64,000 bases of DNA, from NCBI RefSeq assembly GCF_009792295.1, contig NZ_CP039934.1, forward strand, positions 392,501-456,500, given 5' to 3'. This document shows, one piece after another, positions 45,777 to 64,000 of this stretch; positions within the stretch are counted from its first letter, which is position 1; each line of letters opens with the position of its first letter. The notes below the pieces were generated by a model. That model was not told the origin of the DNA and made no database searches. It saw only the letters and a list, made by a program, of their open reading frames with translations. Position numbers and translations under genes: made by a program. This DNA is from Myroides fluvii (GTDB lineage: Bacteria; Bacteroidota; Bacteroidia; Flavobacteriales; Flavobacteriaceae).

Positions 45777-46325
45777 ATGAATGAAAGAGATATTTTAAAA
45801 AAACCTGTGCTAGCTATTGATATGGATGAAGTTCTTGCAGATTCAATGTCCTTGGTATTAGAGCACTATAATAAAGCACATCACACTACTTGGAATAAAT
45901 CGGGTCTTTTTGGAAAAACCATTTACGAGTGCTTACCTCCTTCTCACATCCCTTTTATCAAGCAACTACAAAATAGCGAAACGTTTTATCAAGAAGTCTC
46001 TGTTATACAAGGGGCACAAGAAGGTATCGCTATCCTTTCAGAAAAATATGACATCTATATTGTTTCAGCTGCGCTCGAATTCCCAAATTCTCTTCCTTCA
46101 AGATGTACCTTTATAGAGAAAAACTTTCCTGAAATCACACTAAACAAACTGATTTTTTGTGCCAATAAATCGTTGATTAAGGCCGATTACTTGCTAGATG
46201 ATATGACAGAAAATCTGCTTGCATTTGGTTCTAGCGGTTTTTTATTTACGGCTTATCACAATGCTAAAATTAACTATCCGAATCGACTAAATTCGTGGGA
46301 GGAAGTTGTTGCGAAATTCGGTTAA
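45777..46325 (+). CDS. 5'(3')-deoxyribonucleotidase, NT5C type
   Basis: The 182-residue HAD-superfamily protein has motif I DMDEVLAD (nucleophile Asp15, acid Asp17), motif II Ser97 (IYIVSAAL), a motif III Lys near NKSLIK, and motif IV Asp141/Asp142 (YLLDDMTEN). It would dephosphorylate deoxyribonucleoside monophosphates in the cytoplasm. The cap is short. The gap of 280 bp upstream (45497-45776) holds no clear promoter or gene. A terminator shared with folD follows. Confidence 0.92.
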   Translation: MNERDILKKPVLAIDMDEVLADSMSLVLEHYNKAHHTTWNKSGLFGKTIYECLPPSHIPFIKQLQNSETFYQEVSVIQGAQEGIAILSEKYDIYIVSAALEFPNSLPSRCTFIEKNFPEITLNKLIFCANKSLIKADYLLDDMTENLLAFGSSGFLFTAYHNAKINYPNRLNSWEEVVAKFG

Positions 46326-46340
46326 AAAATAAACTGTACA

Positions 46341-46369
46341 AAAAAGGCGCATCCACGATGCGCCTTTTT
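46341..46369. terminator. bidirectional terminator between nucleotidase and folD
   Basis: The stem AAAAAGGCGCAT (46341-46352) / ATGCGCCTTTTT (46358-46369) has a 5-nt loop. It serves both convergent genes. Confidence 0.9.
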
Positions 46370-46381
46370 CAGTATTATTTA

Positions 46382-47269
46382 TTATTCTCCTTTTTTCGCT
46401 CTTCTTGAACGAGCTAAAAGTGTATTTTTCAATAACATGGCAATGGTCATTGGACCAACTCCGCCTGGTACTGGAGTGATGAACGCTGCTTTTTTGCTTA
46501 CCTCATCAAAATCCACATCTCCAGCGATTACATATCCTCTTGGAGCGTTTGCATCTGGTACGCGTGTGATTCCCACGTCAACTACCGTTACTCCGTCTTT
46601 TACCATATCTGCTTTTAAGAAATAAGGTACACCTAAAGCCGAGATAATGATATCTGCTTCTCTTGTAATAGCGGCGATATCTTTGGTACGACTGTGTGTT
46701 AAAGTTACTGTTGCATCTCCAGGGTATCCTTTTCTGCTCAATAGGATACTCATTGGACGTCCTACAATATGTGAACGACCGATTACCACTACGTTTTTAC
46801 CTGCGGTTTCCACTTTGTAACGCTCAAGTAATTCCATAATTCCGTAAGGTGTAGCGGGTAAAAATGTTTCCATTTCTAAGGCCATTTTACCAAAGTTGGT
46901 GGGGTGAAATCCATCGACATCTTTATCTGCATCTACAGCCATTAAGATTTTTTGTTCGTCAATGTGTTTCGGTAATGGCAATTGAACGATATACCCATCA
47001 ATCGCAGGATCAGCGTTCAATTCTTTGATTTTTGCCAATAATTCAGCTTCTGTTGTTTCTTCAGGTAAAGCAACCAAAGTAGATTCAAATCCAATTTGCT
47101 CACATGATTTTACCTTACTTCCTACGTAAGTTAAACTTGCTCCGTTGCTTCCCACAAGCACTGCTGCTAAATGAGGTACTTTTTCACCGCGAGCTTTCAT
47201 TTGTTGAACCTCCACAGCGATTTCATTCTTGATATCTTCCGATACCTTTTTTCCGTCTAGTAGTTGCAT
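46382..47269 (-). CDS. folD: bifunctional methylenetetrahydrofolate dehydrogenase/cyclohydrolase
   Basis: It interconverts 5,10-methylene-, methenyl- and 10-formyl-tetrahydrofolate, supplying formyl groups. The 295 residues include Tyr48/Lys52 ([11 protein letters not shown]), PLPKHI, the [12 protein letters not shown] signature, NADP loop [11 protein letters not shown] and the end [18 protein letters not shown]. It is complete. It is separated from ffh upstream by a terminator. Confidence 0.97.
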
Positions 47270-47306
47270 TAAATCGTACTAATTAGTGTGTTGTTGTATG
47301 TAAAAT

Positions 47307-47347
47307 AAAGAAGGTTTAAACTTCGCGTTGAACCTTAAACCTTCTTT
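47307..47347 (-). terminator. terminator of ffh
   Basis: The 13-bp stem AAAGAAGGTTTAA (47307-47319) / TTAAACCTTCTTT (47335-47347) has a 15-nt loop. It lies 8 nt past the ffh stop; the U-tract is modest. Confidence 0.75.
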
Positions 47348-47354
47348 TGTATTT

Positions 47355-48692
47355 TTATTGCATTCCTTTCATTTGTCCCATCATGCGCATCAAATTCTTT
47401 CCTTTCGCTCCTTGCATCATCTTCATCATTTTACTCATTTGATCGAACTGTTTCAACAATTGATTTACCTGTTGAATATCCGTTCCAGATCCTTTGGCAA
47501 TTCGCTGTTTTCGTTTTGCGTCTAAGACTGAAGGTGTAGCTCTTTCTTTGGGTGTCATCGAGTGGATAATCGCTTCGATGTGCTTGAAGGCGTCATCTTC
47601 GATTTCTACGTCTTTCAACGCTTTTCCAACTCCTGGTAACATGCCTACTAAGTCTTTCATGCTACCCATTTTTTTCACTTGTTGAATTTGCGACAAGAAA
47701 TCGTCAAATCCGAACTCGTTTTTCGCAATTTTCTTTTGGATTTTACGCGCTTCTTCTTCGTCGTATTGTGCTTGTGCACGCTCAACTAAGGAAATAACGT
47801 CTCCCATCCCTAAGATACGATCCGCCATACGATCCGGGTAGAAAATGTCTATTGCATCCATTTTCTCTCCTGTACCAATAAATTTAATTGGTTTGTTTAC
47901 GACTGATTTAATTGAAATGGCAGCTCCACCTCGTGTATCCCCGTCTAATTTCGTTAGGATTACCCCGTCAAAATTCAAACGATCGTTAAATGCTTTTGCT
48001 GTATTTACGGCATCTTGTCCCGTCATGGAATCCACAACGAATAAGGTTTCGTGTGGTGTAATTGCTTTGTGAATATTGGCAATTTCAGTCATCATCTCCT
48101 CGTCCACAGCCAAACGACCTGCCGTATCGACGATAACTACGTTGAATCCATTTGCTTTTGCATGCTTGATTGCATTTTCAGCAATTTGAACCGGATTATT
48201 ATTTCCTTCTTCAGAATATACCTCAACACCCAATTGTTCTCCAACAACGTGTAACTGATTAATAGCCGCAGGACGGTATACGTCACACGCTACTAATAAA
48301 GGTTTTTTATTCTTTTTTGTTTGTAAGAAGTTGGCCAATTTACCAGAAAAGGTGGTTTTACCCGATCCTTGTAAACCAGACATTAAAATTACAGAAGGAG
48401 TTCCAGATAAGTTGATTCCAGCAGCTTCTCCTCCCATTAATTCTGTAAGTTCGTCTTTTACGATCTTAATCATTAATTGGCCGGGTTGAAGCGTAGTCAA
48501 TACATCTTGTCCTAGGGCTTTATCTTTTACTTTACTCGTAAAATCCTTGGCAATCTTAAAGTTAACGTCGGCATCCAAAAGGGCTCTACGCACCTCTTTT
48601 AAGGTATCTGCAACGTTTACCTCAGTAATTTTACCATGTCCCTTAAGAATATGAAAGGCTTTATCTAATTTATCGCTTAAATTATCAAACAT
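47355..48692 (-). CDS. ffh: signal recognition particle protein Ffh
   Basis: This GTPase binds signal peptides and 4.5S RNA and delivers nascent chains to FtsY. The 445 residues comprise the N domain (about 1-85), the G domain with G1 GLQGSGKTTFSGKL, G3 DTAGRLAVDEEMM, G4 TKLDGDTRGGAA and G5 GTGEKMDAI, and a methionine-rich M domain (about 300-445; SKMMKMMQGAKGKNLMRMM, RQR-like RIAKGSG). It has its own TTG-N20-TATCTTTG promoter. Confidence 0.97.
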   Translation of the reverse strand: MFDNLSDKLDKAFHILKGHGKITEVNVADTLKEVRRALLDADVNFKIAKDFTSKVKDKALGQDVLTTLQPGQLMIKIVKDELTELMGGEAAGINLSGTPSVILMSGLQGSGKTTFSGKLANFLQTKKNKKPLLVACDVYRPAAINQLHVVGEQLGVEVYSEEGNNNPVQIAENAIKHAKANGFNVVIVDTAGRLAVDEEMMTEIANIHKAITPHETLFVVDSMTGQDAVNTAKAFNDRLNFDGVILTKLDGDTRGGAAISIKSVVNKPIKFIGTGEKMDAIDIFYPDRMADRILGMGDVISLVERAQAQYDEEEARKIQKKIAKNEFGFDDFLSQIQQVKKMGSMKDLVGMLPGVGKALKDVEIEDDAFKHIEAIIHSMTPKERATPSVLDAKRKQRIAKGSGTDIQQVNQLLKQFDQMSKMMKMMQGAKGKNLMRMMGQMKGMQ

Positions 48693-48720
48693 ATCGGTAT
48701 TATTTAATACTTTGAAGCGC

Positions 48721-48751
48721 CAAAGATACTACTTAACTCCTTAAGTCACAA
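48721..48751 (-). promoter_or_regulatory. ffh promoter
   Basis: The -33 TTG (48749-48751), a 20-nt spacer and -7 TATCTTTG (48721-48728) on the minus strand lie 28 nt before the ATG. Confidence 0.75.
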
Positions 48752-48860
48752 AAAGCAAAAGCAGGAAAAATAGTCTTTTTTAAAAATAATCTTGTAAGTG
48801 TGAATTTTACTGTGTTTTTTTTAAAGCTTCCCTTTCTTTTCTCTTCGTATTATCGGTTAG

Positions 48861-49433
48861 TTAGGCCAATTCAAACTCTACAAGGGTTTGTCGATTTCCG
48901 TTTGAATCGATAACATCCATCCCAAAAAAATCAAATCCATTGCGCTTTAACTCATTCTCCGTAATAATTTCGCCAGATAGCAATTCGATTTCATTTTCTT
49001 CATTTAAGAATTCTTCCATTTCATCGTCATAATCGATATTGTGATACGCATAAACGAGGACTTCAAATACATTTTCTCCATTTAAAATTAATTCTTGTAC
49101 TTTCCCTTCTCTTGCTTGAAGTACTTCTTCCTCGTATTCATCGCAAAACATTGCATTATAGCCGTGTTTGGCATAATCAAAGAGCAAGATGCGCTCTTGC
49201 GTTTCTACATCTTCTGCATAGACAACAACGGGAAAATCATCCTGGTCAACCAAGAGATTAATATCCGCGGCATATTCGCCACAGTAATAAATTTTAAACC
49301 GTCTTCCTTGAGTAGAAGATTGAATTTGTCCGCGCCATTCAATAGCGATCATCTCTTGAAAATACCTTGATGTATCATAAGTTATAAAAGAAGACAAATA
49401 CGTTGGTGCTTGATAGGTGGATGGATTTTTCAT
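48861..49433 (-). CDS. hypothetical acidic protein
   Basis: Not recognised. The 190-residue, cytoplasmic, very acidic protein has runs of Glu/Asp (YHNIDYDDEMEEFLNEENEI), two cysteines (YYCGEY, MFCDEY) and a predicted alpha/beta structure. The C-terminus VEFELA is strand-like. It has no signal peptide or catalytic motif. It is divergent from the sigma factor gene (164 bp gap) and has no operon partner; ffh lies 168 bp downstream in the same direction. Confidence 0.75.
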   Translation of the reverse strand: MKNPSTYQAPTYLSSFITYDTSRYFQEMIAIEWRGQIQSSTQGRRFKIYYCGEYAADINLLVDQDDFPVVVYAEDVETQERILLFDYAKHGYNAMFCDEYEEEVLQAREGKVQELILNGENVFEVLVYAYHNIDYDDEMEEFLNEENEIELLSGEIITENELKRNGFDFFGMDVIDSNGNRQTLVEFELA

Positions 49434-49597
49434 GTACTTGTATTTAAAGCGACAAGGTAACTCGTTTTTTTTTGCTGTTTTACTTACTTCTCTATTTTTT
49501 CGTCCTTATTTCCTTCATTTATATAACGGTGCTTTAATATTGGCTTAATATTAGAATAGGCTACAAACCTTACTTTAGCCTAAAATAATTGATTCGT

Positions 49598-50173
49598 ATG
49601 AATACAGCAAAAGACAAATGGATTAACACCCATTACAATTTACATTGGGACGTTTTATACCAATATTCGTATAATATACTAAGAGATCAGACCTTGGCTT
49701 CGGATGTGGTTCAAGATGTTTTTATTTCCATTTGGGACAACTTTGATAGCTTAACTATTGACAATAGCAAGGCGTACTTAATCACAGCGGTAAAAAACAA
49801 AAGCCTCTATTACCTCAAGAAAGTTCCATTCAATACTATACAACTCGAATCGGTTTATCACGTATTGACAGAACACGAATTACTAACGAATGAGGAAGAA
49901 AGTTTATTCAAAGAGCAATTGTTGCAATTGATTTACAATAAAGCTCAAGAAGTATTGCCTACACGATGTTTAGAGATTTTCAACCTTCGCTTCTACAGTC
50001 ATCAGAATTACAAGGAAATCGCCTCTAAACTATCCATTTCAGAAAGCACGGTTGAGAATCAAATATCCAAGGCATTGAAAACCTTAAAATCAACCTTGCC
50101 TTATACCTTAGATTTTTATTTCTTACTACTCTACCTCTTCCCTACTTCTGATTATTACCAAATTGTAATGTAA
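49598..50173 (+). CDS. ECF RNA polymerase sigma factor (FecI-like)
   Basis: The 191-residue sigma-70 family protein has region 2 (about 20-85; LYQYSYNILRDQTLASDVVQ, VFISIWDNFDSL) and region 4 (about 120-175; EIFNLRFYSHQNYKEIASK and SISESTVENQISKALKTLK). It lacks regions 1 and 3, hence ECF. I use the ATG at 49598; a TTG lies 9 nt upstream. It heads the FecR-SusC-SusD locus and should direct its transcription when released by the anti-sigma. A partial promoter (TACTTTAG) precedes it. The C-terminal tail is hydrophobic (FYFLLLYLFPTS), unusual for a cytoplasmic sigma. Confidence 0.93.
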   Translation: MNTAKDKWINTHYNLHWDVLYQYSYNILRDQTLASDVVQDVFISIWDNFDSLTIDNSKAYLITAVKNKSLYYLKKVPFNTIQLESVYHVLTEHELLTNEEESLFKEQLLQLIYNKAQEVLPTRCLEIFNLRFYSHQNYKEIASKLSISESTVENQISKALKTLKSTLPYTLDFYFLLLYLFPTSDYYQIVM

Positions 50174-50252
50174 ATTAAGAAATCGTTACCCTTGTTTTTT
50201 AACATAGGGGCATGCTCCTGTTTTGTGCTCTTTCCTATATAAGACCAAAACA

Positions 50253-51176
50253 ATGGAGAAAAAGTTCAAAACTATTTTAGAACAATACCTACAGGATTCA
50301 GCCTCTACTCAGGAAAAAGAGGCCGTCGAATCTTTTGCACAAAAAATGAATGAGGAAGGTATTCCACTAGTGGAAGTCCAGCAAAACACCTCTCTAAAAA
50401 ACAACGTTTATCGCTCTATTCTCGCCCATACTTCAGCAAAGAAAAGACGAAAAAAAAAGAAACAAAACACCTTGATCCTAGGTAGTTTATTCTTTTTCAT
50501 TGCACTCGGCACCTTAGGGTACTATACGTTAACTGACTCTTCTCAAACCTATACCTCAACAGGTGATCGCCAAATCATCACCCTAGCAGATCAATCTCAA
50601 GTTACGTTATTTCCCGGTAGTGAATTAATCGTTTCTAAGGCGTATAACCAAACGGATCGTCAAGTTCAGCTGAAGGGAAAGGCTTTTTTTGCTATCAGCA
50701 AAAACAAACAACTTGCTTTTACGGTTCTCACTGCTGATTTGGAAACGTCTGTTTTGGGTACTTCTTTTCTTGTTGAGGAAGATTTAACTAGGACCTCCAT
50801 TGCCGTGCACACTGGAAAAGTAAAAGTGCAAACGAAAGCGCATACAGACTATGTTATTCTTCAACCCCAAGAATCGGCGCGTTTTGAAAATCACAAGCTT
50901 CAAAAATACAATGCGCAGCAGGATCGAATGTCTTCTTGGAATTCCTCGCTAAACATGTTGAATGCTTCTTTTGCGCATTGGAAAGCCAGTATTGAAGGCG
51001 AATTTGACATCCTTATCCAATCTGAAAGCAAAGCGATACAACGCATCAAAATAACAGGAGATTACCGCAATAGTAATTTACAAGATATCCTCGATAGCTT
51101 TTGCTTTATCAACAATTTACGCTATAGCCAACAAAACAATTTAATAACTATAAACGAAGCAAACACACATGATTAA
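50253..51176 (+). CDS. FecR-family anti-sigma factor
   Basis: The 307-residue single-pass inner-membrane protein has a cytoplasmic N-terminal sigma-binding part (about 1-72), a membrane helix about 75-95 (LILGSLFFFIALGTLGYYTL), and a periplasmic FecR domain (about 105-200; TGDRQIITLADQSQVTLFPG and VLGTSFLVEED). A C-terminal domain like DUF4974 (about 225-305; ITGDYRNSNLQDILDSFCFI) follows. It senses the SusC-type receptor through its STN domain. I take the ATG at 50253; the frame opens at TTG 30 nt earlier. It overlaps the receptor start by 8 nt. Confidence 0.93.
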   Translation: MEKKFKTILEQYLQDSASTQEKEAVESFAQKMNEEGIPLVEVQQNTSLKNNVYRSILAHTSAKKRRKKKKQNTLILGSLFFFIALGTLGYYTLTDSSQTYTSTGDRQIITLADQSQVTLFPGSELIVSKAYNQTDRQVQLKGKAFFAISKNKQLAFTVLTADLETSVLGTSFLVEEDLTRTSIAVHTGKVKVQTKAHTDYVILQPQESARFENHKLQKYNAQQDRMSSWNSSLNMLNASFAHWKASIEGEFDILIQSESKAIQRIKITGDYRNSNLQDILDSFCFINNLRYSQQNNLITINEANTHD

Positions 51177-54100
51177 CAACACTAAACTGCGTATGCGAAT
51201 ACGCCTGTACATCGCTTGTTGTATTCTTCTAGGTTCTCAATACAACTATGCCTTCAGTCAAGATCACCTGCATAGTGCAACAACGATGAATATTGTATTG
51301 GCCGCTAAGAAAACGAATGTAGGCCATGTTTTTAAAGCCATTGAAGAGCAAACTTCCTATAAAGTTGTTTTTTCTTCTGAGATGGTCGATACCAATACTG
51401 TTATCTCCTTTTCAAACACCACGGCTGAACTCAAAAATGTATTGGATGTCATTGCTAAGGAAACCACAACGGCTTATCGCATCAACAACAATTTAATTTC
51501 CTTCAAACGCGAAGCTCAACGCTCGCAAATCACAGCACAAGCGGCACAAACGATTACGGGAAAAGTAGTGGATTCAAATGGAGAAGCGTTACCTGGCGCT
51601 ATTATTCAAGTGCAAGGTGGAACAGCGAGTACATTAAGTGATGTTGATGGAAACTTTAGCATCAAAGCGATAATTGGAAAAGATAATTTACACGTCTCTT
51701 TTGTTGGTTATACACCACAAGTCCTAGTGGCTAAAAACAAGATGACAATCCAGTTAGGTGAAAGTACCAATGATTTGGATGAAATCATTATTGTGGGATA
51801 TGGTACCCAACAAAAACGATTGGTCACGACCGCCATTGACAAAATGAGTGTCACCAATGAGAATATGCGCACGGTGGCGTCTCCCGTTGAATTACTACAA
51901 GGAAAAATGGCGGGAGTTAGTGTCAATACGAGTTCAGGGAACTTAGGAACGGGAGAACGCGTTTCCATTCGTGGAATTTCATCTATTAGTGCAAGCAACG
52001 AGCCTTTGTATGTTGTTGACGGTATTCCGTTGTACAATCCATCAGCTGAATTGTTTAATATGGGGGAAGGAATGAGTTCGTTGAATACCATCAACATGAA
52101 AGACATCGAATCAATTGAAGTGTTGAAAGACGCTGCTGCTGCCGCTATCTATGGTTCACGTGCCAACAATGGAGTGATTATCATTACCACAAAATCAGGT
52201 AAGAAGAACAGCAGTAACGTTCGTTTTAATATTAATACGGGAATTTCTGAATTTGCCAATAAAAACAAACTCAAAATTACTAATTCAGACAAATACATCG
52301 CGCAATACAACGAAGGGGTATCCAACTACAACAAGCAATATAACTTACAAGTTGGCGACAAAGATTACAAAAGTCCGATTAGCAATCCTTTTGGCAATTT
52401 ACCCGACACCAATTGGTTGGATTTAATCACCCAAAGAGGAACATTTACAGATGTTGACCTCTCTTTTTCAGGAGGTTCTGAAAAGACAACCTATTACCTT
52501 GGTGCTTCTTACTTACAACAAGATGGGGTAATCAAAACCAACAGCATGAAGCGGTATAACTTAAATACAAAGTTGCAAACGGAAGTTACGCCTTGGTTAA
52601 CCATTGGTACGAATAACAACTTATCTTATGTTCGCAACAATCAAGTACCGGGTCCGAATTTGGGAACTACAATTATTGCGAGAGCCATTGAACAACGTCC
52701 TTTTGATCGTCCTTACAAACCCAATGGCGATTACTACATAGGTGGTACAGAAGAATTACTTCGACACAATCCTATTCAAATCCTCAACGAGCAAAAAACC
52801 TATTTGGATCTGTTTCGCTACATTGGAAATATCTATGCGGATATTCAAATTCTTCCCAACCTTACGTTTCGCAATAGTATCAATACCGATTTCAACTATA
52901 CGTATGATTATTTGTACTACAACGAGAAGCATCCTTATGGTACTGGGGTGGGGCGTTTAGTAGATTCTAAACGAACCATTTTAAATCTAGAAACGGAAAA
53001 TGTTTTAACCTACAACCAGCATTTTAATGATTTTGGTTTAACGGCTATGGCTGGGCATACCTTCCAAAAAGTAACCAACAATACAACAGGAATTGACGGA
53101 CGTGGTTTCCCTTCTCCTTCTTTTGATGTGATCAATGTGGCCTCTGAAATTACAGGCGCAACGGGTTATGTCACGGAATATGCGATGGAGTCGTATTTTT
53201 CTAGGGTTACCTTAGACTATAAAAGCAAATATATTTTGAATGCCTCTATTCGAACGGATGGTTCTTCCAAATTTGCTCCTGATACCCGTTGGGGCTGGTT
53301 TCCTTCTGTATCCTTAGGATGGAACATCGACCAGGAGGATTTTATGCAAGAAATGGGAATTGATGCAAAATTAAGATTGAGTTATGGTAGTACTGGAAAT
53401 CAAGAGGGAATCAACAACTACGGTTATTTATCATTGCTTTCTGGAGGAAATGATTATGGTTTAGAAAGTGGAATTTCAGTTTCTAGTTTTGGAAATAACA
53501 CCTTGACTTGGGAAAAGGCCAACCAGACAAACTTTGGTATGGATCTAGCCTTTTTCAATAGACAATTGACCTTTAGCATGGATATGTATAAGAAGAAAAC
53601 CAACAACTTACTGTATTCTATGCCTATACACGCAACTTCAGGGATGTCGAGTATCTTGACCAATATTGGTTCTATGGAAAACAAAGGAATTGAAATAGCG
53701 GTAGGAACCGATTTAACGTTCAACGATTTTCAATGGCAATCCAATTTCAATATTGCTACGAATAAAAACAAAATCACACAACTAATTGACAACAAAGGAG
53801 AGCCTTTATCCATAGGTGGCAATCGCGCCTTACAAGTAGGAAAGGATATTGGTGCTTTCTATCTATTTGTTCAAGAGGGCATTTACCAATACGATGGCGA
53901 AGTACCACAAGAACAATATGAACGCGGTGTTCGTGCTGGGGATGTAAAATGGAGAGATAGAGATGGAAATAACATCATCAACGACAACGACAGAGAGGTT
54001 ATCGGCAGTTCTAATCCAGATTTTTTTGGAGGATGGAACAACAGCTTTAGATACAAGAATTTCCAATTCGATATCCTGACGACTTTTTCTTATGGCAATG

Positions 54101-54516
54101 ATGTTTATGCTGGATGGAAGCCGGGAGTTTTAGGAAAACTAGGAGATCGCTTCCCTATTTTAGATGAATACTATGACAATCGTTGGACAGGTCCTGGTTC
54201 TACCGATCGCTATCCGAGAGCTTTGATGGGCGATACCAATAACAACAGAAATTCCGATCGTTGGCTAGAAGATGGTTCCTACTTCAAAATTCAATCTGCC
54301 ACGTTGAGCTACCACTTTGACCAAAAGGTATTGGATCGCCTAAAAATCAAAGGACTTCGCGTTTACGTTCAAGGAACAAACTTGCTACTACTAACAAAAT
54401 ATTCGGGCTGGGATCCTAGCGTAAGTCCGAGTTTAGACGCTCGTTTCTATGGAAATGATGCCTTAGGAGTTCCTCCTACACGCAACTTTTCTATTGGTTT
54501 AAATGTCAACTTTTAA
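51169..54516 (+). CDS. SusC/RagA-type TonB-linked receptor with STN domain
   Basis: The 1115-residue outer-membrane transporter has a signal peptide (about 1-31, ending YAFSQ) and an STN domain (about 45-105; VGHVFKAIEEQTSYKVVFSS) that contacts FecR. A carboxypeptidase-regulatory-like domain (about 122-200; ITGKVVDSNGEALPGAIIQV) follows, then a plug with the SusC block VSIRGISSISASNEPLYVVDG and DIESIEVLKDAAAAAIYGSRANNG (quoted as DIESIEVLKDAAAAAIYGSR), and a barrel ending NFSIGLNVNF. It pairs with SusD to import glycan fragments. The STN domain shows that it also signals to the sigma/anti-sigma pair upstream. Confidence 0.95.
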   Translation: MINNTKLRMRIRLYIACCILLGSQYNYAFSQDHLHSATTMNIVLAAKKTNVGHVFKAIEEQTSYKVVFSSEMVDTNTVISFSNTTAELKNVLDVIAKETTTAYRINNNLISFKREAQRSQITAQAAQTITGKVVDSNGEALPGAIIQVQGGTASTLSDVDGNFSIKAIIGKDNLHVSFVGYTPQVLVAKNKMTIQLGESTNDLDEIIIVGYGTQQKRLVTTAIDKMSVTNENMRTVASPVELLQGKMAGVSVNTSSGNLGTGERVSIRGISSISASNEPLYVVDGIPLYNPSAELFNMGEGMSSLNTINMKDIESIEVLKDAAAAAIYGSRANNGVIIITTKSGKKNSSNVRFNINTGISEFANKNKLKITNSDKYIAQYNEGVSNYNKQYNLQVGDKDYKSPISNPFGNLPDTNWLDLITQRGTFTDVDLSFSGGSEKTTYYLGASYLQQDGVIKTNSMKRYNLNTKLQTEVTPWLTIGTNNNLSYVRNNQVPGPNLGTTIIARAIEQRPFDRPYKPNGDYYIGGTEELLRHNPIQILNEQKTYLDLFRYIGNIYADIQILPNLTFRNSINTDFNYTYDYLYYNEKHPYGTGVGRLVDSKRTILNLETENVLTYNQHFNDFGLTAMAGHTFQKVTNNTTGIDGRGFPSPSFDVINVASEITGATGYVTEYAMESYFSRVTLDYKSKYILNASIRTDGSSKFAPDTRWGWFPSVSLGWNIDQEDFMQEMGIDAKLRLSYGSTGNQEGINNYGYLSLLSGGNDYGLESGISVSSFGNNTLTWEKANQTNFGMDLAFFNRQLTFSMDMYKKKTNNLLYSMPIHATSGMSSILTNIGSMENKGIEIAVGTDLTFNDFQWQSNFNIATNKNKITQLIDNKGEPLSIGGNRALQVGKDIGAFYLFVQEGIYQYDGEVPQEQYERGVRAGDVKWRDRDGNNIINDNDREVIGSSNPDFFGGWNNSFRYKNFQFDILTTFSYGNDVYAGWKPGVLGKLGDRFPILDEYYDNRWTGPGSTDRYPRALMGDTNNNRNSDRWLEDGSYFKIQSATLSYHFDQKVLDRLKIKGLRVYVQGTNLLLLTKYSGWDPSVSPSLDARFYGNDALGVPPTRNFSIGLNVNF

Positions 54517-54528
54517 TCGAACAACAAC

Positions 54529-55791
54529 ATGAAAAAAATACTTTTATTAGCCGTTAGTCTTTCGTTTTTCGCTTGTAGCAGTGAATTGGATTTACACCCA
54601 AGAACGGGCATTTCACCCGAGGCTATTACACCGAATGACCTCAAAGCACTAGAAAATGGGATGTACAATAACGTTCAAAATGATCCAAAAAGAGAAGCTT
54701 GGATTATGTATGACATTATTGGAGGAAACGTACAAGGATCGAGTACAACGAGTAAGGATGTGATCAACAATACCCTCAATCCACTCAACGGTATTATTGT
54801 AAGCAGTTGGAAGGGATATTACAGCGCTTTATATCAAGTGAACAATGTCATTGCTATTGCTGAGGCATTGCCTTTAGATGAAAACACCCGTCGAGTAAGA
54901 GGAACAGCTCATTACTTCAGAGCCTATATCTACTATAGTTTAGTCACGCGATGGGGTGATGTTCCCTTATTAACTCAAAACTCCTTAGAAAAACCTTCTC
55001 GTGCTCCTAAAGCACAGGTTTGGGAACAAATTGAGAAAGATTTAACTCAAGCCAAAGAACTTTTAGCTGCATCCAAAAGTTATTACTATGTGTCTCAAGA
55101 TGCTGTAACCGCACTACAAGCTCGAGTAATGCTTAGTCAAAACAAAATGCAAGAAGCTTCCACTTTAGCAGAAAGCTTAATCACCAATGGCAAATATGCT
55201 TTAGATGCCTTTGAAAAAATCTTCCGCAAAGAAGCCAATACGGAAATTATTTTTGCTTTTGAAAACTTGACGCCTGAATCATCCAATACTATTAGTACGC
55301 TTTTTTACAACTATGGTCATCCCAACAAAGGAAGTTATGTGTACGCTCCTTCCAAAGAGATTTTAGAACTCATTACGACCAATGATAAAAGAAGGGCTAT
55401 TTCTTTTGGTGTATTTGGAGGACAAGATTGCATCAATAAATACCCTAGTGGACAAACGGGTACAGATCCTGTGATTATCTCGAGAATTGCTGAAATGTAT
55501 TTAATTAGTGCAGAGGCATCTTCTTTAGATTTAGGTACACAACGACTAAACGCCGTTCGAACGGCACGAGGTTTACCCCAAGTACACCCAGCTACACAAA
55601 CTGAAATGGTGGCCTTAGTTCTTGAAGAAAGACGAAAAGAATTTCTAGCGGAAGGATTTGCTTACTATGACTATGTACGTACCAATACGGCGACCCAACA
55701 CTTAGGCCTTTTGAACTACCAACACGTACTGCCTATTCCTGGTGGTGAACTACAATTAAATGATAAACTAACTCCTAATCCTGGTTACTAA
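54529..55791 (+). CDS. SusD/RagB-family surface lipoprotein
   Basis: The 420-residue surface lipoprotein (lipobox SFFAC, Cys16) is the lid partner of the SusC transporter. It has TPR-like helices with family blocks NVIAIAEALPLDEN, RGTAHYFRAYIYYSLVTRWGDVPLL (quoted as RGTAHYFRAYIYYSLVTRWG), ISRIAEMYLISAEASS and the C-terminal LEERRKEFLAEGFAYYDYVR. It ends PIPGGELQLNDKLTPNPGY, the usual tail. It is shorter than many SusD proteins (about 500 or more), with a reduced central part. It binds glycan or other ligand at the cell surface. It follows SusC by 12 nt and overlaps the next gene by 1 nt. Confidence 0.94.
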   Translation: MKKILLLAVSLSFFACSSELDLHPRTGISPEAITPNDLKALENGMYNNVQNDPKREAWIMYDIIGGNVQGSSTTSKDVINNTLNPLNGIIVSSWKGYYSALYQVNNVIAIAEALPLDENTRRVRGTAHYFRAYIYYSLVTRWGDVPLLTQNSLEKPSRAPKAQVWEQIEKDLTQAKELLAASKSYYYVSQDAVTALQARVMLSQNKMQEASTLAESLITNGKYALDAFEKIFRKEANTEIIFAFENLTPESSNTISTLFYNYGHPNKGSYVYAPSKEILELITTNDKRRAISFGVFGGQDCINKYPSGQTGTDPVIISRIAEMYLISAEASSLDLGTQRLNAVRTARGLPQVHPATQTEMVALVLEERRKEFLAEGFAYYDYVRTNTATQHLGLLNYQHVLPIPGGELQLNDKLTPNPGY

Positions 55792-56711
55792 TGAGATCTT
55801 TAAAACTTTTATTATTCGGTCTATTCATCCATTTTCAAGTATCGTGTCAAACCAAATCGGACGACACTTTCACAACTTATGAGGCGATTCCAAAAACGGA
55901 AATGGGTACTCAATTGGTTCGAAATAGCAATTTAATCGCACAAATATTCAAGGATTCAACCTATACCCTAACAAGTGGCGTTCAGGTCAATGAATTATCG
56001 TACTTAGCTAAAAAAGGATATACCATGAAAACCTATGTGTATACCGTAGATTTAAACAATCCTCAACTAAGTGTGGTTGCCTCTATGCCGCACAACAAGC
56101 CTGAATTTGCCATGCAACCCATGACGGGACAAGCTACCGCTTTACTCAACCCCAATTTTGAGGTTGTCGGAGGTGTAAATGGTGATTTTTACGATATGAC
56201 AACGGGGGTTCCTAGAGGAATATTTGTTTTTAATGGGATAATTTTAAGAGCATCTTATATCGCTAGAAATGAAGGATATCTTGCAGTCGATAAACAAAAC
56301 AAAGTAAGTTTGGAAGAAATCGAAAACTTCGATGAACAGGCAAGTCAACTCCAACAAGCCGTATCAGGGGGTGTTTGGTTGGTTAAGAATGGACAAACGG
56401 TTGTTCAATCAGACAAGGAAATTCACCCGCGTACAGCGGTTGGAATCACGGCTAAGAATCAATTGTTATTGATGGTTGTAGATGGTAGAAACTACACTTG
56501 GTCTAATGGGATGAATTACGAAGATTTAGGTGATTTTATGCGTAGCATTGGTTCTGAACGAGCTTTAAATCTTGATGGCGGGGGAAGTTCAACCTTTTTT
56601 ATCAACCCCAACTTTGCTGTTAATAAATTTCTTATCCGCAACTTACCTTCAGACAATGGAGGAATTGAACGAGCTGTTGGAAATGGAATCATCATCACTA
56701 AAACCAAATAA
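55791..56711 (+). CDS. phosphodiester glycosidase (NAGPA-family) lipoprotein
   Basis: The 306-residue lipoprotein (FQVSC, Cys20) carries a NAGPA/phosphodiester glycosidase domain (about 80-300). It shows VNGDFYDMTTGVPRGIFVFNG (quoted as VNGDFYDMTTGVP and RGIFVFNG), HPRTAVGI, MVVDGRN, LGDFMRSIG and the hallmark ALNLDGGGSSTF. The human family member removes GlcNAc from GlcNAc-1-phospho-mannose; bacterial members act on sugar-1-phosphodiesters. It is the only enzyme-like protein of the Sus-type locus, and its start shares a base with the SusD stop. The substrate is not known. Confidence 0.9.
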   Translation: MRSLKLLLFGLFIHFQVSCQTKSDDTFTTYEAIPKTEMGTQLVRNSNLIAQIFKDSTYTLTSGVQVNELSYLAKKGYTMKTYVYTVDLNNPQLSVVASMPHNKPEFAMQPMTGQATALLNPNFEVVGGVNGDFYDMTTGVPRGIFVFNGIILRASYIARNEGYLAVDKQNKVSLEEIENFDEQASQLQQAVSGGVWLVKNGQTVVQSDKEIHPRTAVGITAKNQLLLMVVDGRNYTWSNGMNYEDLGDFMRSIGSERALNLDGGGSSTFFINPNFAVNKFLIRNLPSDNGGIERAVGNGIIITKTK

Positions 56712-56713
56712 AC

Positions 56714-58408
56714 ATGAAGACACAGTCAATCAAACCACTCTTTATTTTAGGGGTACTCTATTCTCTTTTGTTTTTCTTTGTTGGTTGTAGTGCAGACGAT
56801 AATCGCTATGGCTTTACCCCAACCAATCCAAATTTATCCCTTGCTCAAAAAGCATTTGAAGTAAGTAAGGAACAAGGAGAATTGGAAGTGAGTTTTGAAT
56901 CCAATTTACCTTGGCGTGTGGAATCCAACACCAATTGGATTACCTCTAATCTCCTCCGTGGGGATGCGGGTAAACATACGTTAAAAATAACCTACAACAA
57001 AAACCTCGCTTTAGAAGATCGCCTCGGCACACTGCTTATCAAAATTACGGATGACAGCAAGGAAAAGATCACCATCAAACAAGCCAAAGCGAGTATTGAC
57101 GATACCTATACACATTATTATGTCAAAGAGAATGGCACGGGTGATGGTAGTAGTTGGGAACAAGCCACTACCTTAGATCAAGCCTTACAACTCGCGGTAA
57201 ACAACAATGATGTCATTCACTTAACGGAAGGAATCTACTATCCTGGGGCTCATGAACTCATTCCCAATACAGCAGATAAAGACAAAACATTTTTGATTCA
57301 AGCAAATATCAAACTAATTGGCGGTTACCCTAAAACAGCTACAACGGGTAGTAAACCTGCCCCCAATGCGCAATCTATCCTTTCGGGTGCCAATCAAAGT
57401 GTACATGTTATGACTATTTTGGCTCAAAAAATAACTGGTTTAACAGTCATGCTAGAAAACTTAACAATAACGCAAGGAAATGGCGACGCAGGAGCGAGCA
57501 ATTTAACACTCAAAGGATTCAGTGTGCCTCGTGATCACGGAGCGGGAATCATCATCATGGAATCTGCAGTAACAATGAACAACTGTAAAATTATCAAGAA
57601 CCAATCTGGACGTCATGCAGCTGGAATTTTTGCTACACAAAAAAGTATCGTAAACATCACGCACAGCATCGTTAATGAGAATACAGGGGTAAACAGTAAC
57701 GCTAATGCTGGTGGAATTTTTGTTAATAATTCGACGATGAACCTTTCCTTTACGGATGTCTCTTTCAACAAAGCAGGTGGGGTTTCCGGTGGAATCCAAA
57801 CGTTGAACAATTCGGAAATCAACTTGACTAACGTAACGGTTACAAATAACCAAGCCAATAGTAATGCTGGTGGATTCTACCACAGAGGCAATTCAAAATC
57901 TGTAGTCATCAATTCGTATTTCTATAACAATACCGCAACAGAAGGGGGAGGAATCTCCACTCATGATGGCGCTGTATTACACCTGATTAACAGCACGTTG
58001 TACCGAAACGAATCTCAAAAACTATATGGTGCTATCAACAACCAAGCAAACAATACCATTTACCTCTACAACAGCTTGTTGTTTGACAACCCAAGTACGG
58101 TCAATAACAACGGAATTAATCCAGCAGGAACCTTAAGCGTTACAGCATCGGCAGTACACAACCAACTTTTTGGGGCAGAAAATATCCTAACGGGAACTTT
58201 TACAGCTCAGGATATTCAAACGGCAAATCCGGTACAAATTATGCCTAGTAATGCATCTAGTCCGATTGCTACTAAAGGAATGAGTGTAGAAGAACTAATG
58301 GAACTTCGCAATCGATTGGGAATCGCCATTCCTATTGAAGTTTTTACTTCTGATTTAAATGCGAAATCAAGAGAAGGAAGTAAAACCATGGGAGCTTATC
58401 GTTTATAA
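56714..58408 (+). CDS. BACON domain/right-handed beta-helix lipoprotein
   Basis: The 564-residue lipoprotein (lipobox FFVGC, Cys25) has an N-terminal BACON-like beta-sandwich (about 45-130; VSFESNLPWRVESNTNWITS), a putative glycan- or mucin-binding domain. A parallel beta-helix (about 135-515) follows, with pectate-lyase-like coils: VILSGANQSVHVMTI-type start, then repeats such as LTNVTVTNNQANSNAGGFYH, NINLTFTDV-like and HLINSTLYRNESQ. Asn/Thr ladders are evident. No lyase catalytic triad can be pointed to by eye, so it may bind rather than cut. It is the last gene of the sigma-Sus locus, with a terminator after it. Confidence 0.85.
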   Translation: MKTQSIKPLFILGVLYSLLFFFVGCSADDNRYGFTPTNPNLSLAQKAFEVSKEQGELEVSFESNLPWRVESNTNWITSNLLRGDAGKHTLKITYNKNLALEDRLGTLLIKITDDSKEKITIKQAKASIDDTYTHYYVKENGTGDGSSWEQATTLDQALQLAVNNNDVIHLTEGIYYPGAHELIPNTADKDKTFLIQANIKLIGGYPKTATTGSKPAPNAQSILSGANQSVHVMTILAQKITGLTVMLENLTITQGNGDAGASNLTLKGFSVPRDHGAGIIIMESAVTMNNCKIIKNQSGRHAAGIFATQKSIVNITHSIVNENTGVNSNANAGGIFVNNSTMNLSFTDVSFNKAGGVSGGIQTLNNSEINLTNVTVTNNQANSNAGGFYHRGNSKSVVINSYFYNNTATEGGGISTHDGAVLHLINSTLYRNESQKLYGAINNQANNTIYLYNSLLFDNPSTVNNNGINPAGTLSVTASAVHNQLFGAENILTGTFTAQDIQTANPVQIMPSNASSPIATKGMSVEELMELRNRLGIAIPIEVFTSDLNAKSREGSKTMGAYRL

Positions 58409-58435
58409 CCCCTTCCTTATTTTCTTATAAAGCAT

Positions 58436-58472
58436 CAAGCCATCCCGTAATAGGATGGCTTGATTTTTTTAT
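58436..58472 (+). terminator. terminator of the Sus-type locus
   Basis: A perfect 10-bp stem CAAGCCATCC / GGATGGCTTG (58436-58445 with 58453-58462) has a 7-nt loop and is followed by ATTTTTTTATTT. Confidence 0.9.
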
Positions 58473-58649
58473 TTGACTGAACTGCTGTTTTTCTGTGTTC
58501 ATCTTCCAATAAGAAATAAACCATTTTCTGACTAATCCATACTCTTCCAACATACACGTAAAGGATTCTCTCTTAATTGATCAACGTATTAGCTGTGTAA
58601 GCCAATCAAAGCGTAAACGCCCTTTCCCACTTGATCTTCAAAATTCCAA

Positions 58650-58679
58650 TTGTACACCCGTGAATAATATGTAATTTTG
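58650..58679 (+). promoter_or_regulatory. promoter of the RluA-family gene
   Basis: The -33 TTG (58650-58652), a 19-nt spacer and -7 TAATTTTG (58672-58679) lie 20 nt before the ATG. It has the same spacing as three of the four rRNA promoters. Confidence 0.8.
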
Positions 58680-58699
58680 CAGCAACCAAATTCAAAATC

Positions 58700-60382
58700 A
58701 TGTCCAACACCGATGCTGCTTTTAGACGATTTCAATCGGATATTTCGCTAATCAACAAACCTCAAAAATTCACGTTTCCTTTTTACTACGAACCTCATCC
58801 ATTGAGTATTGTGGCTTGTGAAGAACTACAACGTGAACTGGAAAGCAATGCAATATTTCTTCCTCTTTTTGACGCTTCTCACCCGCTAGGTTTACCTTCA
58901 GGCAAAATGTTTGGGGTATTACTTGTTGAAAATCGAAGCGGAGAATTGGGTTATTTACGTGGTTTTTCGGGTAAACTAGGCTCCTATACGCATTTGGAAG
59001 GATTTGTTCCTCCTGTATTTGATTTATGGAATAAGGACAGTTTTTTTGCTAAAGAAGAAGCGGTATTAAATGCTATTAATGCGCAACTGGAGCAAGTACA
59101 ACAAGATCAGACCTACAAAGAAGCGACGGACCTCCTCCAACGACAACTAGCTGAGGAAAAAGAGGCTTTGACTCAAAAAAAGGCAGCACTGAAACAGCTA
59201 AAACAGGAGCGAAAAACGGAACGAGACGCAAAAATAGCAATCCTTAGTTCGGCAGAATTTGAACTATTACATGACGATTTAATCAAACAAAGTTTACGCG
59301 ATAAACATGAACTGCGCATGCTCACCGCCTATTGGCAAGAACAAGTCCAAGCAACACAACAGCGCATTGCTGATTTTGAACTGCATATTGCGACCTTAAA
59401 AGAAGAGCGAAAGCAGAAATCCAATGCTTTGCAGCGCAAGCTTTTTCAGCAATATCGCTTTCTCAACTACAACAAAGAAGAGCAAGATTTACTGGATATT
59501 TTTGAGCAAACAGCACTTCAACAACCTCCTGCAGCAACGGGTGATTGTGCGGCACCTAAATTATTACAATACGCTTACCTCAACGGTTATAAACCCCTTG
59601 CTATGGCGGAATTTTGGTGGGGTGAATCACCTAAATCAGAGATTCGCAAACACCAGCACTACTACCCGGCTTGTCGTGGTAAATGTGAACCGATCTTAGG
59701 GCATATGTTACAGGGGTTAGATGTGGATGAAAATCCACTGCTAATCAATCCAGAGCTACAGCGCCCGATTGAAATTGTTTATGAGGATGAGGACTTTGCT
59801 ATTGTCAATAAACCCGAGGAGTTTTTAAGCGTTCCTGGAATTTACATTCAAGATTCCATTTATGAGCGCATGAAAATACGCTATCCCAAAGCGACGGGTC
59901 CCCTTATTGTACACCGCTTGGATATGGCGACATCTGGTATTTTAATCATAGCCAAAAACAAAGAAGCACATAAGGCCTTACAAAGTCAGTTTATCAAAAA
60001 AACAGTAACGAAGCGTTATGTGGCTCTTTTAGACGGAATCATCCAAGGAGAGGAAGGCGTTATCGATTTACCGCTGCGTGTCGATTTAGAAGACCGCCCG
60101 CGTCAGATGGTTTGCTACGAACACGGTAAACCTGCTAAAACAAAATGGGAGGTGATCGAACGAAAAGAGGGCAAAACCAAAGTGTATTTTTATCCCATTA
60201 CAGGGAGAACGCACCAATTGCGCATGCATGCTTCTCATCCCCTGGGACTGAATACGCCTATTGTAGGTGATGATCTCTATGGCACCAAGAGTAGTCGTTT
60301 GTTTTTACACGCGGAATCAATTACGTTTAAACATCCGAAAACCTATGAAACGGTTTCTTTTCAAGTGAAAGAGCAATTTTGA
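58700..60382 (+). CDS. RluA-family pseudouridine synthase with long N-terminal extension
   Basis: The C-terminal ~205 residues (about 354-560) form an RluA-type pseudouridine synthase with catalytic Asp408 (IVHRLDMATSGILIIAKN) and YPITGRTHQLRMHASHPLG. The first ~350 residues are an extra module: an alpha/beta part (about 20-110), a long charged coiled coil (about 125-250), and a segment with Cys283 (GDCAAPKLLQYA) and Cys325/Cys329 (ACRGKCEPILGHML) that looks like a possible metal or RNA contact. No S4 domain is present. The target RNA is unknown. It has its own good promoter. Confidence 0.9.
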   Translation: MSNTDAAFRRFQSDISLINKPQKFTFPFYYEPHPLSIVACEELQRELESNAIFLPLFDASHPLGLPSGKMFGVLLVENRSGELGYLRGFSGKLGSYTHLEGFVPPVFDLWNKDSFFAKEEAVLNAINAQLEQVQQDQTYKEATDLLQRQLAEEKEALTQKKAALKQLKQERKTERDAKIAILSSAEFELLHDDLIKQSLRDKHELRMLTAYWQEQVQATQQRIADFELHIATLKEERKQKSNALQRKLFQQYRFLNYNKEEQDLLDIFEQTALQQPPAATGDCAAPKLLQYAYLNGYKPLAMAEFWWGESPKSEIRKHQHYYPACRGKCEPILGHMLQGLDVDENPLLINPELQRPIEIVYEDEDFAIVNKPEEFLSVPGIYIQDSIYERMKIRYPKATGPLIVHRLDMATSGILIIAKNKEAHKALQSQFIKKTVTKRYVALLDGIIQGEEGVIDLPLRVDLEDRPRQMVCYEHGKPAKTKWEVIERKEGKTKVYFYPITGRTHQLRMHASHPLGLNTPIVGDDLYGTKSSRLFLHAESITFKHPKTYETVSFQVKEQF

Positions 60383-60527
60383 TAGCGGTTGTTTTTTGTT
60401 TTTTTGCTAGTTGCTTTTTTATTCGTTGTGATTTTATTCCATTTTCGGTTAAAAAATAGCTCTTCTTTAATCAGAAAAGTCACTCATTTCTCATAACTCC
60501 TTATCTTTAGCTAAAATAAACAAGGTT

Positions 60528-61760
60528 ATGCGAGATAAAAAAGCTCAACTTCGGCTACACAAGCGAATTGCCACGGGATTATTTCTAGTCATGGCTGTTG
60601 TATACCTCTTCATGGTATACCTTTTGAAATATAGTCCTGCGAGTTGGATGGGTTATGTTAAAGCGTTTGCTGAAGCAGCTATGGTGGGTGCCTTGGCCGA
60701 TTGGTTTGCTGTAACAGCTTTGTTTCGCCATCCTATGGGATTGAAAATACCCCACACCAATCTAATTGAAAACAAGAAAAATGATATTGGAGACAATTTA
60801 GGCAATTTCGTCACGGAGAATTTCCTAACGCCATCCACGATCCGCCCTTATATTAACAAACTTGAAGTAGCCCATTTTCTATCACAATGGCTGAATCAAC
60901 CCAAAAACCAACAGCTTTTAGAGCAGGAATTGCTCTTTTTACTTCAATCCATTATCCAAGATATAGATGAGAAAAAAATCATTGATTTTCTATCTCAGAA
61001 GGCAGAAGAGGGAATGAATGAAATCAACATACAACAATTTATTGCACAGGGATTACAGTATGCTTTGAAACAGAATGAGCACAATCGGTTGATTTCTTTA
61101 GTCTTACCAAAAATACAAGACTATGTTGAGCATCATCGCACAGAAATTTACGAGCAAATTATAGAAAAGAAACCGCTTTTAGGATTAGTCGGAGGTAAAA
61201 CGGTTACCAATCAATTAATCAAAGGATTACATGCTTTTTTAGCTGATATTCAAACCAACGAAAAACACAAAGTAAGAGAAGAAATTGGCCTTCAGTTGAT
61301 TCAATTAGCCAAGGATATTGAATCTTCCTTGGAATGGAAGACAAAATTACAAGCTATGTTGCATCAATTTGTAACGAAGGACGTTATTAGGCAGTACTTA
61401 ACTGATTTTTGGCTAACAACAAAAGAATCCCTTCTCATCCAATTAAAAACGGAAAATTCTACTTTTCGCTCTTATTTAAAAAACACGATTCAATCGCTTG
61501 CAGATACGATTAATCAGGATGTAGATTTACAGCACCGTTTGAATCATTGGACACAAGTTACCTTATATCGCATGGCTTTGCGCAACACCCAAGAAGTGAG
61601 TACCTTAATCCGCAATACAGTGGATCAATGGGATGGCCGTGAACTCAGCGATAAACTTGAACTCGAAGTGGGAAAAGATTTACAGTTTATTCGAATCAAT
61701 GGAACCTTAGTGGGCGGATTAGTGGGTTTATTGATATACTTATTCACCCAATTATTGTAA
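60528..61760 (+). CDS. DUF445 domain membrane protein
   Basis: The 410-residue DUF445 protein has helices at about 15-35 and 385-407 (VGGLVGLLIYLFTQLL). Between them lie the conserved WFAVTALFRHPMGLKIPHTNLI block (quoted as WFAVTALFRHPMG and KIPHTNLI), VTENFL and a long helical region. The topology suggests a membrane-tethered helical domain; the function is uncharacterised. A -7-like TATCTTTA precedes the ATG by about 20 nt. It ends overlapping the convergent hypothetical gene by 9 bp. Confidence 0.9.
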   Translation: MRDKKAQLRLHKRIATGLFLVMAVVYLFMVYLLKYSPASWMGYVKAFAEAAMVGALADWFAVTALFRHPMGLKIPHTNLIENKKNDIGDNLGNFVTENFLTPSTIRPYINKLEVAHFLSQWLNQPKNQQLLEQELLFLLQSIIQDIDEKKIIDFLSQKAEEGMNEINIQQFIAQGLQYALKQNEHNRLISLVLPKIQDYVEHHRTEIYEQIIEKKPLLGLVGGKTVTNQLIKGLHAFLADIQTNEKHKVREEIGLQLIQLAKDIESSLEWKTKLQAMLHQFVTKDVIRQYLTDFWLTTKESLLIQLKTENSTFRSYLKNTIQSLADTINQDVDLQHRLNHWTQVTLYRMALRNTQEVSTLIRNTVDQWDGRELSDKLELEVGKDLQFIRINGTLVGGLVGLLIYLFTQLL

Positions 61761-62234
61761 GATAAACCGACTTCGAATATGATCCGTTAGCATTTTTTGC
61801 ACTTGAGGATCGGATTCGGTTTGTTTCAAAAAATCAAAATGCGAGAGTATTTCATCCGTTCGCTTTGGTGAAAGTTGAATATTAGCTGTGCTTAAAAACG
61901 TATCAAACGAAATATGGGCTGCACAAACGTAATCAAAAAGGTAGTGTTTACCTCCTCTTTCGAGGAGTTCTTGAGCCAAGATGTGGTAATTTTGAAAGAC
62001 AGAAAAACTCACTTGAGCTACTTTGCCCAATTCAATAAATAAATCGCGAATTAGATCAATATTAACCGTGTGTATCTGATCGCAAACGATACTTGCGATC
62101 TGTTGTCTAAAGATGTAATTTTCATCTTTGAACTTCGCCCCAAATTTTCCGTTCCATTTTAATTCCAACCAATCGCGATCTGCCATATCATAATTTTCAA
62201 TAAAAGACTGGATTCCAACATGTTCTACCGTCAT
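61752..62234 (-). CDS. hypothetical protein
   Basis: Not recognised. The 160-residue soluble, mostly helical protein has no signal peptide or transmembrane helix. Motifs such as WLELKWNGKFGAKFKDENY and FRQQIASIVCDQIHTVNIDL are distinctive, and the C-terminus is basic (MLTDHIRSRFILQ). It is convergent with DUF445 with a 9-bp overlap. It is separated from hisS upstream by a strong terminator, so it has its own promoter. Confidence 0.75.
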   Translation of the reverse strand: MTVEHVGIQSFIENYDMADRDWLELKWNGKFGAKFKDENYIFRQQIASIVCDQIHTVNIDLIRDLFIELGKVAQVSFSVFQNYHILAQELLERGGKHYLFDYVCAAHISFDTFLSTANIQLSPKRTDEILSHFDFLKQTESDPQVQKMLTDHIRSRFILQ

Positions 62235-62419
62235 ACTCCCATATTTAAATTCATTTTTTCCTTTTGCTAAGGTACTACATAAATTTTGGTCTCCTTTTTT
62301 TGTATAGCATTTTTTGCATACTTTTTCATTCTAATAAATATACAGCAAACAACTACAATAAAGCACTTGAGCGCATTTGATACGTACAATTTAGTACCTC
62401 CTGTCTATCAACAAAATAC

Positions 62420-62468
62420 AAAAAAGATAAGGGTTGCATGCTTCAGCATGCAACCCTTATCTTTTTTT
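62420..62468 (-). terminator. strong intrinsic terminator of hisS
   Basis: A perfect stem of about 21 bp, with core ATAAGGGTTGCATGC / GCATGCAACCCTTAT (62427-62441 with 62446-62460), carries a TTCA loop and is flanked by A- and T-runs so that it can work in both directions. Confidence 0.9.
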
Positions 62469-62494
62469 ATGTTCGATTTCTTTGTCCTTGTATC

Positions 62495-63865: not shown

Positions 63866-63896
63866 TTTCAATTAATTTTCAAATTATTTAATCATA

Positions 63897-63904
63897 CAAA
63901 AATA
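63897..63904 (-). promoter_or_regulatory. -7 element of hisS
   Basis: TATTTTTG on the minus strand, 31 nt before the ATG. No -33 TTG is seen. The rest of the window to 64000 is AT- and AG-rich with no further gene. Confidence 0.45.
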
Positions 63905-64000
63905 GGTATTTTTAATTAGAAAGAGGAAAGAGGAAAGAAGAGAGCGGAGAATTTTTCTAAATAAAGAAAATATTCTCTTTTATTTGAAAAAAACAACTTT

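Follow-up and report, generated by a model that had tools for sequence, protein, structure and literature searches.

The window, a stretch of 64,000 nucleotides of Myroides fluvii DNA (contig NZ_CP039934.1, a single contig of 3.77 Mb, positions 392,501 to 456,500), contains a six-gene locus that resembles Sus-type polysaccharide utilization loci under extracytoplasmic function (ECF) sigma factor/FecR control in its adjacent SusC and SusD homologs, surface lipoproteins, and dedicated regulators. It differs from them in that Pfam detects neither a glycoside hydrolase nor a polysaccharide lyase among its genes, its enzyme belonging to PF09992. The features of the locus are as follows.

49598..50173, + strand: ECF-type sigma factor (TIGR02985-like), ATG start (PF08281, TIGR02985)
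50253..51176, + strand: FecR-type anti-sigma regulator (PF04773, PF16344)
51169..54516, + strand: SusC/RagA TonB-dependent transporter with a weak N-terminal STN-like region (TIGR04056)
54529..55791, + strand: SusD-like lipoprotein (PF14322, PF07980)
55791..56711, + strand: NAGPA/DUF2233 phosphodiester glycosidase-family protein, probably exported (PF09992)
56714..58408, + strand: lipoprotein with a BACON domain and a right-handed parallel beta-helix (PF19190, structure model)
58434..58464, + strand: intrinsic-terminator-like hairpin with a 12-pair stem and a T run after it

The initial annotation of this DNA described a six-gene run with overlaps or gaps of at most about 80 nucleotides (nt) that ends at one terminator, and the open reading frame (ORF) coordinates and family assignments, all on the plus strand, bear this out. 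The FecR gene likely starts at the ATG at 50253, 79 nt from the sigma gene (a TTG at 50223, the first possible start, would reduce the spacing to 49 nt). The FecR and SusC genes overlap by 8 nt, 12 nt separate SusC from SusD, SusD and NAGPA overlap by 1 nt, and the beta-helix gene follows after a 2-nt gap. The hairpin at 58434 to 58464 has by far the longest stem in a loose terminator pattern scan that returned 7 sites versus a chance expectation of 7.4; a second, weaker site (7 pairs) lies between the sigma and FecR genes (50204 to 50221). A scan for sigma-70-type promoters returned 13 sites versus 29.3 in shuffled sequences, a pattern that is uninformative for Bacteroidota. The six-gene layout and the hairpin fit a single transcription unit, from which the genes would be co-transcribed.

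Family profiles matched the sigma factor, FecR, SusC, and SusD of the self-contained Sus locus that had been annotated. The sigma factor matches PF08281 (2.6e-11) and scores 121.9 bits with TIGR02985, slightly below the cutoff of 126.4, and the FecR protein matches PF04773 (1.2e-14) and PF16344 (2.7e-7). SusC scores 867 bits with TIGR04056, and the SusD protein encoded beside it matches PF14322 (3.2e-22) and PF07980 (8.8e-16). In line with the annotation, Pfam gave no glycoside hydrolase or lyase family for the six genes, although the beta-helix protein has a lyase-like fold. One gene encodes an enzyme with a clear phosphodiester glycosidase fold in its structure model.

The DUF2233 family is known mainly through a human enzyme of lysosomal targeting. 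Its member in the window scores 140 bits with PF09992 (cutoff, 25), and its model matches the fold of Protein Data Bank entry 3ohg and of vertebrate NAGPA, with the active-site motifs kept. On the basis of family and modeled fold, the protein is predicted to cleave sugar-1-phosphodiesters. The closest named proteins are from Myroides. The bacterial homolog BACOVA_00430 (3ohg) of Bacteroides ovatus reportedly has about 1% of the human activity on GlcNAc-P-mannose. Excerpts of PMC12419801 cite the DUF2233 paper for phosphodiester hydrolysis, and excerpts of PMC11188070 mention NAGPA domains only as parts of fusions.

The distribution of the NAGPA protein was assessed in several sets of genomes, with the query or centre genome included in the counts. 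Within the genus in the GTDB sense, 3 of 101 genomes contain a close ortholog (E below 1e-100) and 8 of 101 contain any match (E ≤ 0.001). A class-wide draw gave matches at 1e-20 in 2 of 395 genomes, one of which is the window's own genome. At least 2 of 200 genomes match at 1e-30 in the family of a Paludibacter genome, at least 3 of 349 at 1e-60 in that of Bacteroides pyogenes, and at least 38 of 351 at 1e-60 in that of Parapedobacter composti (47 matches listed); these three family counts are lower bounds because some first-look candidates are unscored. SusD (at least 47% identity) lies directly beside the NAGPA gene in 26 of 40 regions from the Parapedobacter composti family and is not so placed in the other 14. 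A core set of 35 loci from 33 genomes, made up of these and other loci, was chosen for having SusD beside NAGPA, and tblastn found SusC, SusD, and NAGPA in identical order in all 35, followed by the beta-helix gene in 25 (L014 ends at a contig edge). In ten loci (L118, L163, L165, L185, and L189 to L194) this gene does not follow; its position is taken by a BACON/LRR protein in L163 and by a protein of the same cluster in L165. Across the four proteins, sequence distances are correlated (Spearman 0.83 to 0.91), as expected for co-inheritance, with a contribution from shared species history; comparisons with the beta-helix protein use 23 or 25 sequences, with L165 included and L169 and L177 missing. 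The co-occurrence of NAGPA with SusC and SusD, which the initial annotation had proposed as a check, is thus found in other genomes, and the gene order recurs in distant relatives.

Phosphoesterases and sugar enzymes adjoin a minority of these loci, as confirmed by Pfam. Alkaline phosphatase is encoded together with Exo_endo_phos in L016 and with a second NAGPA in L163, while L185 contains a phosphodiesterase and an NAGPA-NHL fusion. L031 contains a GlcNAc-2-epimerase family gene, MFS, DUF4434, and type I phosphodiesterase; L167 contains GDPD, GH20 (glycoside hydrolase family 20), and Exo_endo_phos; L168 contains GH20; L118 contains a GH20-esterase fusion and Exo_endo_phos; and L191 contains Exo_endo_phos. 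Any of four phosphoesterase types was found by tblastn in 7 of 35 core loci versus 1 of 40 control regions (Fisher one-sided P = 0.017), in a post hoc test whose four queries came from core loci L016, L031, and L167 and in which one genome contributes both L016 and L118. The Exo_endo_phos family carries little weight by itself, since its genes are common (2 to 21 in each of 34 genomes).

Together, these results lead us to favor, with some reserve, a SusCD-type uptake locus dedicated to phosphodiester-linked glycans, a plausible interpretation that the comparative evidence strengthens. Given that its gene order recurs in distant relatives, the locus is probably a real, little-studied route for feeding on phosphate-linked sugars. 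Our best guess for the substrate is an N-acetylhexosamine-1-phosphodiester polymer, e.g., a teichoic acid or capsule. A phosphate-bridged glycan would be held at the cell surface by the beta-helix lipoprotein and SusD, the NAGPA protein would hydrolyze the sugar-1-O-P bond to yield free sugar and a phosphomonoester, and the product would be imported via SusC. Loaded SusC would then signal through its N-terminal domain to FecR, freeing the sigma factor and increasing transcription of the operon. The leftover phosphate would be removed by phosphatases, whose genes adjoin the locus in some relatives and would have to lie elsewhere in this genome. The phosphodiester-glycan interpretation of the initial annotation is therefore kept in part: the NAGPA-SusCD linkage is retained in relatives and phosphoesterases adjoin some related loci, while the class of substrate and the binder role of the beta-helix protein are putative.

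Phosphatases next to the transporter genes would also suit a phosphate-scavenging locus that takes up phosphodiester sugars chiefly for their phosphorus, and an alkaline phosphatase or phosphodiesterase does adjoin L016, L031, L163, and L185. Excerpts of PMC8115612 describe such loci, Flavobacterium PusCD, as SusCD loci that are induced by depletion of inorganic phosphate (Pi) and contain phosphomono- and phosphodiesterases, no carbohydrate-active enzymes (CAZymes), and FI/FII lipoproteins weakly homologous to pectate lyases/polygalacturonases. The replacement of CAZymes by phosphate-bond enzymes in some relatives and the pectate-lyase-like lipoproteins are shared features, but the window locus encodes a sigma/FecR pair of its own, suggesting that the substrate rather than Pi is the inducer, and a phosphodiester glycosidase-family enzyme; the main text of PMC8115612 never uses the word "glycosidase." Because the window locus also lacks a phosphatase (Pfam, six genes), we do not class it with the Pus systems. 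Sugar use is suggested by the GH20 and epimerase-family genes of some relatives, and we regard phosphorus scavenging as unlikely. As for the claim that the system is undescribed, no SusCD locus aimed at phosphate-bridged glycans was found in listings of the mainly open-access literature searched, but SusCD loci in which phosphoesterases stand in for glycosidases are, as a general concept, already published, as excerpts of PMC8115612 indicate.

Several observations weigh against a dedicated phosphodiester-glycan uptake locus. The initial annotation named an STN-SusC, and while SusC is clear, its STN domain is weak (PF07660, E = 0.062) and STN was undetected in the SusC proteins of the same-genus loci L124 and L125; of seven SusC homologs tested, three exceed the cutoff (L031, 2e-16; L015, 4e-15; L014, 1.3e-9), with L166 borderline (28.3 versus 28.4 bits) and L163 weak (0.004). 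The NAGPA-family lipoprotein that it named is supported as to family but less so as to anchoring, since the lipobox is noncanonical, with Q at −3, and was unmatched by the lipobox scan. When the query donors are removed, phosphoesterases are found in 4 of 32 core loci versus 1 of 40 controls. None of the four types was found by tblastn in 28 of the 35 comparison loci or in the window (positions 46001 to 64000 searched), nor did Pfam find a phosphomono- or phosphodiesterase among the six genes. The genome itself has no PF00245 and no GH20 match at E ≤ 0.001, so that downstream dephosphorylation would need genes elsewhere; two PF01663 genes over the cutoff and four PF03372 matches are present. 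A GH20/GlcNAc pathway was considered and rejected: this genome has no GH20 match, and GH20 occurs in relatives L118, L167, and L168 and also in 1 of 40 controls.

To the same side belongs the sequence divergence of the enzyme. Human uncovering enzyme NAGPA and BACOVA_00430 share the fold and conserved motifs of the window protein, but identity to characterized structures is 19 to 29%, and the window protein is linked with SusCD and with a lipoprotein of beta-helix fold. This low identity, together with the wide occurrence of PF09992-like genes in Bacillota and Actinomycetota, could mean that the protein cleaves another bond, for example in remodeling of the cell's own envelope, and that SusCD imports something unrelated. 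The retained active-site motifs and fold and the conserved linkage to SusCD make this very improbable.

The remaining adverse points concern the beta-helix protein and one group of neighboring genes. The protein matches BACON (PF19190, 28.2 bits; cutoff, 25), with PF13004 at 24.6 bits slightly below its cutoff of 25, and the structure nearest to its model is a pectate lyase (VIA-align 2). When the protein was considered as a member of a known solved family, a phmmer search gave no relative, and none of the 50 Foldseek matches listed is a beta-helix family by title. In addition, seven related loci (L173, L175, L176, L179, L181, L182, and L184) share one chromosomal site, where family assignments rest on tests of L175, L176, and L182 members. 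In five of the seven, genes for SDR and mannonate dehydratase (UxuA) lie 3′ of the operon in its own orientation, directly after it in L173 and L176 and beyond a cupin gene on the opposite strand in L175, L181, and L184. Chondroitinas_B-family genes are convergent with the operon in the other two (L179 and L182), and a PfkB-family kinase gene lies upstream on the opposite strand in 6 of 7, i.e., in all regions that reach far enough.

With the SDR and UxuA genes, a uronate substrate is conceivable. An alternative reading is that the locus serves ordinary polysaccharide use, with the beta-helix protein (a lyase or hydrolase) as its chief depolymerase, acting perhaps on a uronic-acid polymer, and with NAGPA only trimming a substituent. 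The same-strand placement raises this alternative and slightly lowers the phosphodiester-glycan reading. PL9 (polysaccharide lyase family 9) enzymes have a catalytic lysine and calcium-binding aspartates; the beta-helix lyases Pel9A and 5olr belong to this family. The window helix appears to differ from them, in that columns at least 90% conserved among 26 relatives (residues 134 to 500) include no Lys, Asp, or Glu. Furthermore, L163 has a BACON/LRR protein in place of the helix, and uronate genes were not noticed beside other loci inspected. Because the uronate genes are confined to one lineage and one site, a uronate or alginate substrate was not adopted and is kept as a rival, and we judge the depolymerase reading as a whole quite unlikely.

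Some further features were noted around these families. In the window's genome, a second NAGPA gene (L127:9046-9996) directly follows a GDSL/GxDLY (GDSL_3) esterase gene, the pair spanning L127:7969-9996 (G000 C1 near 3236000-3238000); GxDLY/GDSL_3 esterase domains also occur close to two related loci, L172 and L118, in the latter as a fusion with GH20. The SusC frame of L172:11688-15089 is split into two ORFs (427 and 688 amino acids), and the gene may be broken. One Paludibacter cluster (L016:9851-15491) encodes a beta-helix-NAGPA fusion followed by two more beta-helix proteins. NHL-repeat proteins occur in or near some loci (L185:7213-9144, L185:9231-10556, and L167:18461-19777); one of them is fused to NAGPA, and two carry a TIG domain. 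Two equal-scoring NAGPA matches in G075 (C1:70652-70936 and 4230907-4231191) lie on opposite strands, equidistant from the two ends of a 4301842-base contig. The ends thus look like an inverted duplicate of about 70 kb, which may be an assembly artifact.

Phosphate-bridged glycans are abundant in nature, in teichoic acids, many capsules, and phosphomannans. It is a tentative but serious possibility that self-regulated uptake loci with a phosphodiester glycosidase as core enzyme, in place of a glycosidase or lyase, are widespread in Bacteroidota and harvest such glycans, for example teichoic acids or phosphorylated capsules of other microbes. The conserved module would offer a testable entry to this question through its enzyme, SusD, beta-helix protein, and ready-made sigma/FecR sensor. 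If the interpretation is true, it would give the DUF2233 family a bacterial role.
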